Assembly (NCBI GenBank): GCA_007127335.1
Contig: SKZO01000153.1
Span: 1-40,439, forward strand
DNA: 40,439 nt
Direction of reading: 5' to 3'
Origin: Spirochaetales bacterium
Lineage (GTDB): Bacteria; Spirochaetota; Spirochaetia; DSM-27196; SLST01
Shown: positions 16,681 to 33,866 of the stretch, one piece after another
Numbering within the stretch: position 1 is the stretch's first letter
Layout of the letters: each line of letters starts with the position of its first letter
Position numbers and translations under genes: made by a program
The notes under the pieces: model-generated
Told to the model about the DNA's origin: nothing
The model's input: the letters and a program-made list of their open reading frames with translations, nothing else
Databases searched by the model: none

Positions 16681-16752
16681 AGCGGGAGACCGGATTCGAA
16701 CCGGCGACATCCACCTTGGCAAGGTGGAGCTCTACCACTGAGCTACTCCCGC
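16681..16752 (-). tRNA. tRNA-Gly (anticodon GCC)
   Basis: A 72-nt cloverleaf. The acceptor GCGGGAG pairs with CTCCCGC. The anticodon stem CCACC/GGTGG holds the loop TTGCCAA. T-loop TTCGAAT, discriminator T, no encoded CCA. Last gene of the tRNA operon. Confidence 0.96.
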
Positions 16753-16782
16753 AGGAATCACGCATCCCGATGTACACGGGAA

Positions 16783-16864
16783 TGCGAGAGAAGGGACTTG
16801 AACCCTTACGCCCGAAGGCACCAGATCCTAAATCTGGCGCGTCTACCAATTCCGCCACTCTCGC
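16783..16864 (-). tRNA. tRNA-Leu (anticodon TAG)
   Basis: An 82-nt class II tRNA. The acceptor GCGAGAG pairs with CTCTCGC. The anticodon stem CCAGA/TCTGG holds the loop TTTAGGA. The long variable arm contains TGCCTTCGGGCG. T-loop TTCAAGT, discriminator A, no encoded CCA. Confidence 0.96.
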
Positions 16865-16892
16865 TCCTGGCGCGCACTGGTTCAAGGCCACC

Positions 16893-16965
16893 TGAGCCGT
16901 GAAGGGTTCGAACCTTCGACCCGCAGATTAAGAGTCTGCTGCTCTACCAGCTGAGCTAACGGCCC
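16893..16965 (-). tRNA. tRNA-Lys (anticodon CTT)
   Basis: A 73-nt cloverleaf. The acceptor GGGCCGT pairs with ACGGCTC through one G-U. The anticodon stem GCAGA/TCTGC holds the loop CTCTTAA. Discriminator A, no encoded CCA. Confidence 0.96.
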
Positions 16966-16969
16966 CTCA

Positions 16970-17043
<74 letters not shown>

Positions 17044-17137
17044 AGGTTTCGGTCATCGCCGACCGTAGGCAGTACCATACGGAAGACCGACCGAAAGGTC
17101 AATTGCCACGGCCCTGCCGACGGGTGCCCTGCCGAAG

Positions 17138-17211
17138 GGTGGATGACGGGACTTGAACCCGCAACAACCAGACCCACAATCTGGCGCTCTACCGATTGAA
17201 CTACATCCACC
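17138..17211 (-). tRNA. tRNA-His (anticodon GTG)
   Basis: The anticodon stem CCAGA/TCTGG holds the loop TTGTGGG. The histidine-specific extra G-1 (17211) opposite discriminator C73 (17138) is present. No encoded CCA. First gene of the tRNA operon, just after its promoter. Confidence 0.96.
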
Positions 17212-29146: not shown

Positions 29147-30433
29147 ATGCGCAAGATGCCTGTCATAAGCTCCGACTCGGAGCTCAATGAACGGGTCGAA
29201 CGAATCTGTCAGAAGCTCGGAAGCGTGTTCACGCCCGTCTTCTTCGGATCAATGGACGAAGCGCTCGAGTACCTCCTCTACGAGCTCCCGGACGTGAATC
29301 TCGTCAACTACTCCGATCCTCACATCGACGCGAGAGCGATACTCGAGAGGATCAAGGCCGACCCGTGGCTGCATTACGGTGGAATCATCGCCGTACACAA
29401 CCGCCTCGATCTCAAGGCGCTCGAGGAACATCTGCCGGACTCGAACGTGATCAGTGTCATCCCGCGGGGAGAGTTCGTGTCGAGCTTCTTCCGGGTTCTG
29501 CGGATACTCGTGCAGAATCGCAGGATCATCTTCCAGCGTGATCTGCAGAGTTACCTCCTTGGCAACGTATCCGGCTCCTTCGTCATGGACAACGATCCGT
29601 ACAACATCAAGACCTATGCGAATCTTATCAGTAACTATCTGTACAACTCGAACTATATCAACCGCGACAAGCGGGATCGACTGCACGTGGCGCTCTTCGA
29701 GATGCTCATGAACGCGGTCGAGCACGGGAACTGCAACATCTCATACGACGAGAAGACCGACTGGCTCGAAAACCACGGGGATATCCTCGACCTGATCCGT
29801 GCGAAGAGCCGCCAGGCGGAGATCCGCGAGAAACGGGTCTTTTTCTCTTACCGGATCACGCCGGAGCGCTCCTACTTCTCGGTGCGCGACCAGGGCTCGG
29901 GGTTCGACTGGCGTTCACGAGTCGATGTTGACCCCTCAGACGTCAATCTGGGAATGCACGGCCACGGCATTCAGATGACGAACTACTACATCGAGAATCT
30001 CGCCTACAACGATATCGGTAACGAGGTCCGGTTCGAGCTGAGTCATCAGGCCAACGAGACGAACTTCGTTCCCGGGATCTTCGAGGACCAGGCCGAACGG
30101 GTCTTCCAGGACGGTGAGATCGTTTTCAGGGAGGGCGAGGAGTCGAACTTCCTCTACTACATCGTATCGGGGAGCTTCGACATACTCGCCGGTGGAAAGC
30201 TTGTCTCTTCTCTGACACCGGACGATATGTTTCTCGGGGAGATGAGCTTTCTGCTCAATGACCGACGATCCGCCACCATTGTGTCGCGCGGTCGAAGCGT
30301 ACTGATGATGATCCCGAAGAAGTCATTCGTCAACGTCATCAAGTCCCAGCCCCACTACGGCGTCTTTCTCGCACGGCTCCTGGCTCAACGGCTCACCAAG
30401 CTCAACGCGACGGTCGCGACTCTCAAAGGATAG
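29147..30433 (+). CDS. Receiver-like / HATPase / cyclic-nucleotide-binding signalling protein
   Basis: 428 residues, three domains. Residues 1 to about 125 resemble a receiver fold but lack the usual phospho-acceptor motif. Residues about 170-300 are a GHKL ATPase of the RsbW/SpoIIAB kinase type: E185-M-L-M-N189-A-V-E-H-G-N (N box), D248-Q-G-S-G (G1), and G-M-H-G-H-G-I (G2). Residues about 315-425 are a cNMP-binding domain with F-L-G-E-M-S-F-L and R-R-S-A-T-I, the phosphate-binding cassette. This suggests an anti-sigma or serine kinase switched by cAMP or cGMP. No anti-anti-sigma partner is adjacent. ATG 29147 has a purine-rich GGGTGGGAAG upstream. Confidence 0.78.
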   Translation: MRKMPVISSDSELNERVERICQKLGSVFTPVFFGSMDEALEYLLYELPDVNLVNYSDPHIDARAILERIKADPWLHYGGIIAVHNRLDLKALEEHLPDSNVISVIPRGEFVSSFFRVLRILVQNRRIIFQRDLQSYLLGNVSGSFVMDNDPYNIKTYANLISNYLYNSNYINRDKRDRLHVALFEMLMNAVEHGNCNISYDEKTDWLENHGDILDLIRAKSRQAEIREKRVFFSYRITPERSYFSVRDQGSGFDWRSRVDVDPSDVNLGMHGHGIQMTNYYIENLAYNDIGNEVRFELSHQANETNFVPGIFEDQAERVFQDGEIVFREGEESNFLYYIVSGSFDILAGGKLVSSLTPDDMFLGEMSFLLNDRRSATIVSRGRSVLMMIPKKSFVNVIKSQPHYGVFLARLLAQRLTKLNATVATLKG

Positions 30434-30807: not shown

Positions 30808-32205
30808 ATGGTGATGAAGCCTGATCCAATACTCATCGTCGATGATGACGAGCTTGTGGTGGAGATGTACAGTTCGATCCTCGAGGCGGCCGGCTGGACG
30901 AATCGGATCGTCGTCACCGATCCCCGCGAGGTCATGCCGCTGGTGCGGAGCACCGAGTTCTCCGTGATCCTGCTCGATCTGACGATGCCGCACGTCTCCG
31001 GGCGGGAGCTGCTCGGTGAGATCACCGCTGAGCGCCCGCAGGTTCCGGTCATCATCCTCACGCTCGAGGACAGCGTGGACGTCGCCGTGGAGTGCATGAA
31101 GGTCGGTGCGTTCGATTTCATGACCAAGCCGATCAATGAGAATCGTCTCGTGAACTCCGTAGCGCACGCCGTGCAACTGCACTCGTTGCACGATGAAGTC
31201 CGGGTGCTCTCGCGCCGCGGTCGTGACACCGCTATCGCCAACCCGGAGGTCTTCTCCGCGATCGTCACCAGGTGCGAAGCGATGCGCCAGCTCTTCGCGT
31301 ACGTCGAGACCATCGCGGGGAGCCCGCGAGCCGTTCTGATCACCGGTGAAAGCGGTACCGGCAAGGAGCTCTTCGCGCGGGCGATCCACGAGGCGAGCAG
31401 GCGCGAAGGGAGCTTCGTTCCCGTGAACGTCGCAGGAGTTGACGAGACGGTTTTTTCCGACACCCTCTTCGGGCATCGTCGCGGGGCGTTCACCGGGGCC
31501 GATACCGTTCGGCGGGGCCTTGTCGAGCAGGCGGCGGCCGGGACCCTCTTTCTCGATGAGATAGGCGATCTCGATAACGGAGCCCAGCTCAAGCTCCTGC
31601 GGCTCCTCCAGGAGGAGGAGTACTATCCGCTCGGGGCGGACGTTCCGGAACGGTCATCCGCTCGCGTGATCGCGGCCACCAATGCCGATCTGTTCGCCCG
31701 TCAGCAGGATGGCACGTTTCGGCGGGATCTCTTCTACCGACTGATGGGGCATCACGTCCAGATCCCTCCGTTGCGCGATCGCCCGGAGGACGTGCCTGTC
31801 CTGCTCGAGCATTTCGTGGCCGAGAGTTGCGAGGCACTCGGACGCCCGCAACTCACCGTTCCCTCCGGTCTGCACCGGGTGTTCGGCGGCTACGAGTTCC
31901 CCGGCAACGTCCGTGAGCTTCAGGCGATCGTTTTCGACGTCGTCAGTCGCGTTTCCGGACGGGACCTGCGCGACGAGGACTTCCAGTCGCATCCACTGCT
32001 CGCAGGCCATATCCGGGACCGTGGCGCTGCAGAACCGCTCTCCTTCCGCGGGCCGCTTCCGACCCTCGCGGAGGCTGAGGCCTATCTGATTCGCGAGGCC
32101 CTTGAACAGACCGGCGGCAACCAGTCGGCGGCCGCTCGTCTGCTCGGCGTCTCGCAGTCTACGCTGAGCAGACGGCTCGCGCGCAAGACGGACGGCTCCC
32201 GGTAA
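30808..32205 (+). CDS. NtrC-family sigma54-dependent response regulator
   Basis: 465 residues, full three-domain activator. Receiver 1-125 has acidic pocket D12-D13-D14, phospho-acceptor D57 (L-L-D-L-T-M-P) and K107. The AAA+ domain has Walker A G180-E-S-G-T-G-K-E187 and the sigma54-contacting G-A-F-T-G-A loop at 226-231, with F-L-D-E-I-G-D after. The C-terminal Fis-type helix-turn-helix is G-N-Q-S-A-A-A-R-L-L-G-V-S-Q-S-T-L-S-R-R. All residues for activity are present. No histidine kinase is adjacent, so the signal is unknown. ATG 30808 follows GGGAGG. The promoter and paired palindromes just downstream are its likely target. Confidence 0.93.
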   Translation: MVMKPDPILIVDDDELVVEMYSSILEAAGWTNRIVVTDPREVMPLVRSTEFSVILLDLTMPHVSGRELLGEITAERPQVPVIILTLEDSVDVAVECMKVGAFDFMTKPINENRLVNSVAHAVQLHSLHDEVRVLSRRGRDTAIANPEVFSAIVTRCEAMRQLFAYVETIAGSPRAVLITGESGTGKELFARAIHEASRREGSFVPVNVAGVDETVFSDTLFGHRRGAFTGADTVRRGLVEQAAAGTLFLDEIGDLDNGAQLKLLRLLQEEEYYPLGADVPERSSARVIAATNADLFARQQDGTFRRDLFYRLMGHHVQIPPLRDRPEDVPVLLEHFVAESCEALGRPQLTVPSGLHRVFGGYEFPGNVRELQAIVFDVVSRVSGRDLRDEDFQSHPLLAGHIRDRGAAEPLSFRGPLPTLAEAEAYLIREALEQTGGNQSAAARLLGVSQSTLSRRLARKTDGSR

Positions 32206-32214
32206 CCTCATGAC

Positions 32215-32260
32215 CATGCATACTGCATGATGTCCTGCATATTCCATGCATTGTGCATGG
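32215..32260 (+). promoter_or_regulatory. Paired palindromic enhancer sites (UAS)
   Basis: CATGCA-TAC-TGCATG (32215-32229) and CCATGCA-TTG-TGCATGG (32244-32260) are both perfect inverted repeats with a 3-bp centre. Their centres (32222 and 32252) are 30 bp apart, close to three helical turns, and another TGCAT lies between at 32236-32240. They sit about 147 and 117 bp upstream of the predicted sigma54 start. This is the layout of paired binding sites for a dimeric Fis-type activator. Confidence 0.7.
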
Positions 32261-32342
32261 GATTCCCCGGTCGCCGGCTCACGATTCGGTCAACCTGCCC
32301 CGTAAACCATTACGTCACAAGTAGTAGCTTTCTGTCCTCGCC

Positions 32343-32359
32343 TGGCACGAAACGTGCAT
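32343..32359 (+). promoter_or_regulatory. Sigma54 (-24/-12) promoter
   Basis: TGGCACGAAACGTGCAT matches the sigma54 consensus TGGCACG-N4-TTGCW with one mismatch. The invariant GG (32344-32345) and GC (32356-32357) are 10 bases apart. The predicted start is about 32369. It lies 140 bp after the sigma54 activator gene. Confidence 0.75.
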
Positions 32360-32368
32360 TACCTCTCT

Positions 32369-32442
32369 CAGGTGCAGTTCACTGCGCCTATGTAATAACA
32401 GGGCCCGGGGGTCCGTCCCCGCCGGACTTCCGGGCGTCTTTC
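32369..32442 (+). ncRNA. Predicted sigma54-dependent small RNA with two hairpins
   Basis: From the sigma54 start the RNA would begin directly with hairpin 1: 8 bp, 32370-32377 with 32382-32389, loop UUCA. A single-stranded linker rich in A and U follows. Hairpin 2 is 13 bp (32403-32415 with 32423-32435, 7-base loop), followed by GUCUUUC, a weak terminator-like tail. Hairpin 1 contains one G-U pair and hairpin 2 two. On the other strand these become A-C mismatches, so only the plus-strand RNA folds completely. There is no open frame of note. The RNA is antisense to the last codons of pncB. This is prediction from sequence only; the 3' end is uncertain. Confidence 0.42.
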
Positions 32443-33860
32443 ATGTCTTCTATCATGCGCTCCTTGAGCTCGGCGAGGCGGCCGGAGAGCGAGACTTTGT
32501 AGATGTGCGGGTTGATGATCCGTTTGTACGTCTCGTCGAATCGCTCGAGCGATCCGGTACACCGGGCCTGCAGATCCGGAAGCGGCGTTCTCTCATGACA
32601 TCGCTTGCCGCGGTCCATCTGCTTCTCGAGCATGGGCATGATCCTCGCGTAGTTCGTCATCTCGAACGTCCGGGCACTCAGGTCAGGGTGATGGAAGGTG
32701 TACTGCCGGCCCTCGACGATCGGTTCTTCGTCGAGAGCGATGAGATCGGCGAGGGGTGCGTCTGATGCATCGAGGAATCGGTAGACCTGCTTGACGCCCG
32801 GGTTCGTCGTCTTTGCCGGCTGGTTTGAGAGCTTGATCGTCGGTTCGAGCCGACCATCACCCTTCGCGGCGAGCTTGTAGACTCCGGTGAGCGAGGAGTC
32901 TTCGCCGCCGGTCACCAGCCGGGTACCCACGCCCCAGCTGTCGATCGGACATCCGGAGGTAACCAGATGGTGGATGATCTGCTCGTCGAGCTCGTTGCTC
33001 ACCGTGATCGTTGCGTCCTCGAGTCCTGCCGCGTCGAGCCCTGCGCGCACCTGCTTGCTCAGGTACTCGAGATCTCCGCTGTCTATGCGCACGCCGAACC
33101 GGTGTCCGAGCGACTTCAGCTTCTTCCCCACCCGTATTGCGTTTTCGAGTCCGCATCCAAGTGTCGAGTAGGTGTCGATCAGCAGGATCGTTGCGTTGGG
33201 GTAGAGCTCAGCGTACCGCTGGAAGCTCTCCTCCTCCGAGTCAAAGGCCATGACCCACGAGTGCGCCATGGTCCCTTTGACCGGTATGCCGTATGTCCTC
33301 CCACCAAGCGTGTTCGAGGTTGCCGTCGCGCCGCCTATGAAGGCCGCCCGGGTGGCGCTCATCGCGCCGTCGGCTCCCTGCGCGCGCCGCAGACCGAACT
33401 CGAGGACGGCGCCGCCCTCGGCGGCGAGGTGAACGCGGGCAGCCTTCGTCGCAACGAGCGTCTGGAAGTTGATGGTATTGAGCAGCATGCCTTCGATCAG
33501 CTGTGCTTCGATCAGGGGAGCGTGGACGCGAATCAGCGGCTCGCAGGGGAAGACGATACTGCCCTCCGGCATTGCATACAGGTCGCCGCTGAATCGGAAC
33601 TCCCGCAGGTATTCGAGGAAGTCGTCGGAGAAGAGACCGACGCTCCTCAGATAGGAGATCTCGTTGTCCGAGAAACGGATCTGCGAGAGATGGTCGACGA
33701 GATCGTCGAGTCCGGCAAAGACCGCGAACCCGCCGGAAAACGGCTGGCGGCGGAAGAACATGTCGAACACCACGCGACGGTTCTGGTTGAACCGGTGATA
33801 CCCTTGGATCATCGTGAGCTCGTAGAGGTCGGTGAACAGCCCTGAGTTCTGGAGCGCCAT
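32388..33860 (-). CDS. pncB: Nicotinate phosphoribosyltransferase
   Basis: 490 residues, catalysing nicotinate + PRPP + ATP to nicotinate mononucleotide in NAD salvage (Preiss-Handler). Diagnostic features are L-F-T-D-L-Y-E-L-T-M at the start, F-G-L-R-R-A-Q-G, the catalytic-histidine region G-T-M-A-H-S-W-V-M, L-I-D-T-Y, R-I-D-S-G-D, and the W-G-V-G-T-R phosphate loop. The C-terminal tail (after I-Y-K-V-S-L) is Gly/Pro-rich and not conserved; the predicted sRNA lies over it. ATG 33860 is 6 bases after TATACT; an upstream in-frame ATG at 33878 would place the promoter inside the gene, so it is rejected. Confidence 0.95.
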   Translation of the reverse strand: MALQNSGLFTDLYELTMIQGYHRFNQNRRVVFDMFFRRQPFSGGFAVFAGLDDLVDHLSQIRFSDNEISYLRSVGLFSDDFLEYLREFRFSGDLYAMPEGSIVFPCEPLIRVHAPLIEAQLIEGMLLNTINFQTLVATKAARVHLAAEGGAVLEFGLRRAQGADGAMSATRAAFIGGATATSNTLGGRTYGIPVKGTMAHSWVMAFDSEEESFQRYAELYPNATILLIDTYSTLGCGLENAIRVGKKLKSLGHRFGVRIDSGDLEYLSKQVRAGLDAAGLEDATITVSNELDEQIIHHLVTSGCPIDSWGVGTRLVTGGEDSSLTGVYKLAAKGDGRLEPTIKLSNQPAKTTNPGVKQVYRFLDASDAPLADLIALDEEPIVEGRQYTFHHPDLSARTFEMTNYARIMPMLEKQMDRGKRCHERTPLPDLQARCTGSLERFDETYKRIINPHIYKVSLSGRLAELKERMIEDMKDARKSGGDGPPGPVIT

Positions 33861-33866
33861 GGATCC

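Follow-up and report, generated by a model that had tools for sequence, protein, structure and literature searches.

A conserved unit of a sigma54 activator gene and a predicted non-coding RNA in the Spirochaetales, with a possible role as a decoy

The activator locus and its predicted RNA

We analyzed a 40,439-nt stretch of Spirochaetales DNA (the window, by which we mean this whole stretch) in which a first-pass annotation had described paired palindromes, a -24/-12 promoter and an RNA with two hairpins behind an NtrC-type activator gene. All of these elements were present in the sequence and are listed with their positions in Table 1. The activator matched the Pfam families Response_reg (3.2e-26), Sigma54_activat (1.1e-54) and HTH_8 (1.5e-13), and its Fis-type HTH carried the recognition helix SQSTLSRR. 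The genome encodes an AAA+ activator with GAFTGA and a DNA-binding domain together with rpoN, which was located outside this locus. Directly upstream of the activator gene lay a gene (29147-30433) whose protein combines an ATPase domain of the histidine-kinase type with a cyclic-nucleotide-binding domain at the C terminus. A protein of this kind was also encoded beside the activator in two relatives (G004 and G005), and it is a possible candidate for the signal input to the activator. Elsewhere in the window we noted an ordinary cluster of five tRNA genes (16681-17210, minus strand).

Table 1. Positions of the features at the activator locus, numbered from the first letter of the window.
Feature	Position	Strand	Basis or remarks
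NtrC-type activator gene: receiver, sigma54-interaction AAA+ domain (GAFTGA), Fis-type HTH	30808..32205	+	Pfam
Palindrome 1, CATGCATACTGCATG, perfect	32215-32229		starts 128 bp before promoter; motif kept behind orthologous activators
Weak palindrome, CCTGCATATTCCATG, two mismatches, between both perfect ones	32234-32248		
Palindrome 2, CATGCATTGTGCATG, perfect, arms reach 32244-32260	32245-32259		starts 98 bp before promoter; kept in orthologs
sigma54 (-24/-12) promoter, TGGCACGAAACGTGCA	32343-32358	+	one mismatch to TGGCACG-N4-TTGCW
Non-coding RNA (predicted), ~74 nt, predicted +1 to tail GUCUUUC	about 32369-32442	+	start predicted from promoter; fold; conservation
Hairpin 1, GGUGCAG-UUCA-CUGCGCC, 7 bp	32371-32388	+	pairing kept in five genomes
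pncB (nicotinate phosphoribosyltransferase), convergent	32388..33863	-	Pfam NAPRTase families
Unpaired motif, AUGUAAUAAC, the window's one ADGUAADAA copy, between hairpins	32390-32399	+	fold; 87-copy consensus
Hairpin 2, 13 bp, then GUCUUUC	32403-32435	+	fold; conservation; probable intrinsic terminator

The two perfect CATGCAnnnTGCATG palindromes stood 30 bp apart, directly 3' of the stop codon of the activator gene; two perfect palindromes were observed in the window against 0.02 expected. The sequence ATGCAnnnTGCAT occurred five times in the 3.86-Mb genome and two of these copies were the palindromes of the RNA locus, while the other three lay inside or beside coding genes where no sigma54 site was recognised. 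The promoter had the GG-N10-GC of a -24/-12 element, with the palindromic activator sites about 100-200 bp upstream. The promoter pattern alone was not above chance, since the genome held 28 matches as against 64 for the reversed pattern. Among those 28 sigma54-like matches, only TGGCACGAAACGTGCA had two perfect palindromes upstream; the runner-up had a single one-mismatch palindrome 196 bp upstream and preceded a probable glutamine synthetase gene (G000:C159:2753, L286). It is the combination of the parts and their conservation that constitute the evidence. A perfect TGGCACG-N4-TTGCT sigma54-like site was also seen at 10743-10728 (minus strand) of the window, followed by a 341-codon frame, and no TGCAT palindromes were found upstream of it.

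The RNA was predicted to fold at -39.8 kcal/mol (z -4.6), with none of 200 shuffles as stable, whereas the opposite strand folded at -32.5. We compared it with sequences of near relatives, which were Spirochaetales metagenome assemblies, and found a predicted RNA of ~75 nt in the five genomes of the window's genus. The first-pass annotation had proposed to look for covariation, and compensatory changes were indeed found in hairpin 1: all 35 pair cells were intact over the five genomes, with changes on both sides at pair 5 (C-G to G-C), pair 6 (A-U, G-U, G-C) and pair 7 (G-C, C-G, U-A). These pairs were counted by script because MAFFT mis-registered the loop of hairpin 1. All pairs of hairpin 2 were kept as well, with one G-C to A-U change. 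In G004 six U residues in a row came after hairpin 2, as in a good intrinsic terminator, and from its sequence hairpin 2 is a probable intrinsic terminator. A search of Rfam gave no family match for the RNA, and relaxing the E-value returned only matches far below the family cut-offs.

Conservation across the order and the repeated motif

The first-pass annotation had also proposed to check whether the TGCAT palindromes behind the same activator, and GG-N10-GC, are kept in relatives. We found the order activator gene, palindromes, sigma54 promoter and RNA directly behind the orthologous activator in 31 genomes from seven Spirochaetales families. At the 31 loci the promoter had at most one mismatch to TGGCACG-N4-TTGCW, and the palindromes fitted YATGCAnnnTGCATR with no more than two mismatches, some of them perfectly; those of families f4, f6 and f7 tended to begin around -93, -160 and -177 relative to the promoter. 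By chance, 600 bp of shuffled sequence contained 0.05 promoters and 0.06 palindromes with up to two mismatches. In G002 (L038:1824-1895) imperfect 14-bp copies (CATGCAGTCTGCCT) stood in tandem across an expanded first palindrome region, which makes an unusual enhancer of tandem repeats. The activator orthologs were ~50-90% identical over the order and had the SQSTLSR helix in common; the activators of families outside the order were found without the RNA unit and mostly had different residues in the recognition helix.

Palindromes, promoter and RNA occurred together in at least one further genome beyond these 31. This genome, G031, had no RNA beside its activator and carried a complete unit (three palindromes, promoter and repeats) elsewhere, among other neighbours. 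Therefore, the palindromes go with the RNA and are not simply part of the activator's surroundings. We are highly confident that the activator, the sigma54 promoter and the non-coding RNA form a real unit, and the RNA is very likely a new RNA family. The conservation of palindromes, promoter and hairpins thus supports the original proposal of a sigma54-dependent, activator-adjacent sRNA of ~75 nt in a spirochaete.

The constant feature of the RNA across families was a mostly unpaired motif, A-D-G-U-A-A-D-A-A, in 1 to 7 copies that were usually 12 nt apart. The hairpins differed in other families, leaving this A-rich motif as the one constant element, mostly outside the predicted stems; in folds predicted for a few of the longer RNAs, most copies were unpaired, though not all. 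The part of the RNA that generalises across families is hence the motif seen in the window as AUGUAAUAAC, which was absent from the first-pass annotation. About seven copies were present in G037 and G013 and one in the window's own genus. The 87 copies, found in 30 RNAs, gave the consensus A (80/87), then U, G or A (one C), then G (72) or U, followed by U-A-A, then A, U or G, and finally A-A. The pattern GTAANAA was found 76 times on the RNA strand as compared to twice on the opposite strand and 2.2 times in shuffles. One inner A varied between A, U and G while its neighbours were constant, a pattern that was partly built into the search; such variation would fit sequence-specific recognition of a single strand.

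The most frequent spacing between copies was 12 nt (30 cases), followed by 11 (9) and 13 (7), and since it ranged from 11 to 13 nt the reading frame was not kept. We found no ORF shared across members, and AUGUAA start-stops were frequent. A coding function was rejected, as the one KK-rich frame, in L129, could not be maintained where the spacing is 11 or 13 nt. When the 46 genomes of the order were searched for double motifs, 50 places were found among the matches listed, as against 11 for the reversed control, and most of them were in these RNAs; outside the order the double motif was not above control. The promoter combined with the motif gave matches in 22 of the 46 genomes, mostly at the RNA unit.

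Predicted activator sites at genes for probable surface proteins

Perfect palindromes were far more numerous in the 46 genomes of the order than in the reversed control. Of the 20 further palindrome loci that were read, 17 had, 60-260 bp downstream, a sigma54-like site in which GG and GC were kept and at most two positions deviated. Twelve of these 17 preceded genes for probable surface lipoproteins, most of which had ...C(S/A)NPFGSS... or a similar sequence at the lipobox, and two preceded genes for outer-membrane-like proteins (G003:C23, G018:C141), both kinds being called by eye from the N-terminal sequences. One of the 12 lipoprotein loci was in the window's own genus (G002:C383), and in the window's genome two perfect sites were found at the RNA only. 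Since the same palindromes and sigma54 sites precede lipoprotein genes of the relatives, the activator is probably a regulator of the cell surface, and the RNA would be its most conserved target. The RNA would not be the activator's sole target across the order, where lipoprotein genes have the same sites. The shared lipobox start C(S/A)NPFGSS, or one near to it, was seen in several families (L266, L269, L271, L272, L273, L275, L277, L279, L281 and L283).

The motif was missing from most of the regulon's lipoprotein mRNAs. Repeats of it were found behind a porin-like gene (G028) and a pilin-like gene (G041) and in the leader of a gene for a large Ig-like lipoprotein (G015). A lipoprotein gene of G036 (L207:331-3071, minus strand) had UAS-like sites with two mismatches, a sigma54 site, and four motif copies with a terminator in its 3' UTR.

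Possible mechanisms and known systems

In line with the conservation of the parts, we propose that the activator would bind the paired TGCAT palindromes and direct sigma54 polymerase to transcribe a short non-coding RNA that ends at a terminator. The working part of this RNA would be the largely single-stranded ADGUAADAA, which lies between the start and the terminator hairpin in one to seven copies at its 12-nt pitch. Most likely the RNA would act as a decoy, capturing and titrating an RNA-binding protein that recognises the motif, so that the control of other mRNAs would be altered once the activator is on. In view of the activator sites that we saw before lipoprotein genes, the circuit may serve to adjust the cell surface. 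Titration of a protein fits best because the repeats are near-invariant and stand at a fixed pitch within a terminated RNA, and the only other constant feature is the promoter. We hold with about even confidence that a decoy RNA titrating a putative RNA-binding protein is the best mechanism; against it, the single motif copy in the window's genus would make a poor sponge, and most lipoprotein mRNAs of the regulon are without the motif. Targets at the ribosome-binding sites of mRNAs, which a decoy would lead one to expect, were rejected, as GTAAAAA was no commoner before ATG start codons than in the reversed control. Hfq was ruled out as the titrated protein since it (PF17209) was found in none of the 61 genomes searched, while the control genomes were positive. 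We also considered BosR, a Fur-type RNA-binding protein of Borrelia (PMC11109971), as a lead to the partner; the portion of that paper at hand offered no motif to compare.

Alternatively, the RNA could act by base pairing, with its hairpin loops or A-rich repeats pairing with target mRNAs as in Qrr or GlmZ. Each of the five genomes in the genus kept the C-rich loop of hairpin 2, CCCCGC, which could pair with G-rich ribosome-binding sites, but this loop was not kept in other families. GUAAAAA would pair only weakly (with UUUUUAC), and identical copies at a fixed pitch are better suited to protein binding. The failure to find Hfq also speaks against pairing, though some sRNAs act without it. On balance, we consider base pairing unlikely.

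We regard it as improbable that the RNA is a regulated leader or attenuator, with its hairpin as a conditional terminator, of a downstream CheY-like regulator (MKSKGDFP...). The gene for this regulator does come next after the RNA in many other families, with ABC-transporter or acetate kinase genes behind it, and the motif does occur in a leader in G015. However, the RNA faces a convergent gene (pncB) in the window and in the nearest relatives, the gene after it lies on the other strand in L109, L113 and L114, and the displaced unit of G031 has different neighbours. Moreover, no RNA separates the activator from the CheY-like gene behind it in G008 and G015. An equally small likelihood attaches to the idea that the repeats are DNA sites, such as direct repeats bound by a repressor, or a signal for stability or processing of sigma54 transcripts, in which case the RNA would have no role in trans. 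While some DNA operators do look like direct repeats of 12 bp, and repeats stood directly before a hairpin in or behind mRNAs of G036, G041 and G028, a single copy was kept in five species, spacings of 11 to 13 are off the helical phase, and the motif was kept in terminated stand-alone transcripts.

Although the RNA's 3' portion is antisense to the end of pncB in G002 and G003 as it is in the window, where the overlap takes in the last ~17 codons and the stop, a cis-antisense RNA controlling pncB (NAD salvage) is highly improbable, since the RNA is kept where pncB is missing (G004, G005 and other families). Antisense to pncB had been put forward as part of the design; antisense control of this gene is not the ancestral role of the RNA. 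Because pncB is not behind the RNA in G004 and G005 and the neighbours differ in other families, it looks like a recent neighbour and the overlap like a late accident.

To return to the decoy, a close parallel is CbrB-CrcZ of Pseudomonas and Azotobacter, in which an NtrC-type activator and an RpoN promoter likewise serve a non-coding RNA with several A-rich sites. The crcZ gene adjoins cbrB, just as the RNA gene lies beside that of an NtrC-type activator at the 31 loci studied here. CrcZ is a 407-nt RNA with six A-rich stretches that sequesters Hfq and is driven by CbrB with RpoN (PMC4063720). Within the window's genus our RNA falls far short of that length, and its A-rich motif is a different one, ADGUAADAA, mostly unpaired and in one to seven copies (one in this genus). 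CbrB sites are non-palindromic (PMC6296734), unlike the palindromic activator sites found here. The first-pass annotation had likened the RNA to CrcZ, Qrr and GlmY. The layout of CrcZ proved apt, whereas kinship was not supported, given the result for Hfq (0/61) and the lack of an Rfam match. The RNA may work like CrcZ yet is not a CrcZ; the layout is known from cbrB-crcZ, and the motif and the lineage are new, as the putative partner would be. Tentatively, and with somewhat less than even confidence, we suggest a new Spirochaetales family of decoy RNAs that have tandem ADGUAADAA and their own sigma54 activator, are tied to lipoprotein control, and resemble CrcZ without Hfq.

RsmY/RsmZ and CsrB, which are sponges for CsrA, are similarly small RNAs under the control of a response regulator, with a protein-binding motif that recurs along them; the motif here is without GGA and the promoter is of the sigma54 type. 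LuxO-Qrr and GlrR-GlmY/GlmZ are also sigma54-driven small RNAs under NtrC-type activators. The present activator scored far below the cut-offs for LuxO (278.7 vs 800) and GlrR (250.5 vs 763) and is not orthologous by this measure, and neither an Rfam match nor Hfq was found here.

To our knowledge, no activator-adjacent RNA belongs to the Rrp2-RpoN-RpoS pathway of Borrelia burgdorferi, in which a receiver-type sigma54 activator leads to the expression of surface lipoproteins (PMC3037356). Borrelia has no Hfq, the protein once so named being a component of the flagellum without RNA binding (PMC11607428). The two systems are alike in having a spirochaetal receiver-type sigma54 activator, surface lipoproteins and no Hfq, and differ in that Borrelia works through rpoS whereas palindromic enhancers are common to the RNA and the lipoprotein genes here. 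Sigma54 would thus be linked to surface lipoproteins in free-living spirochaetes as it is in Borrelia, by a different route.

The failure to find Hfq in these spirochaetes draws interest to their means of RNA-based control. Being conserved, tied to an activator and equipped with a specific repeated motif, the RNA offers ready bait for pull-down and, if the decoy reading is true, would help to find spirochaetal RNA-binding regulators of a new class. The RNA unit may also be present in a cultivated strain (G011, with a complete genome of 3,285,855 bases). In the window's genome, perfect sigma54-like sites were also seen directly before genes for sigma70-family-like factors (G000:C303:54454, L288; G000:C389:13621, L289), which recall the RpoN to RpoS cascade of Borrelia.
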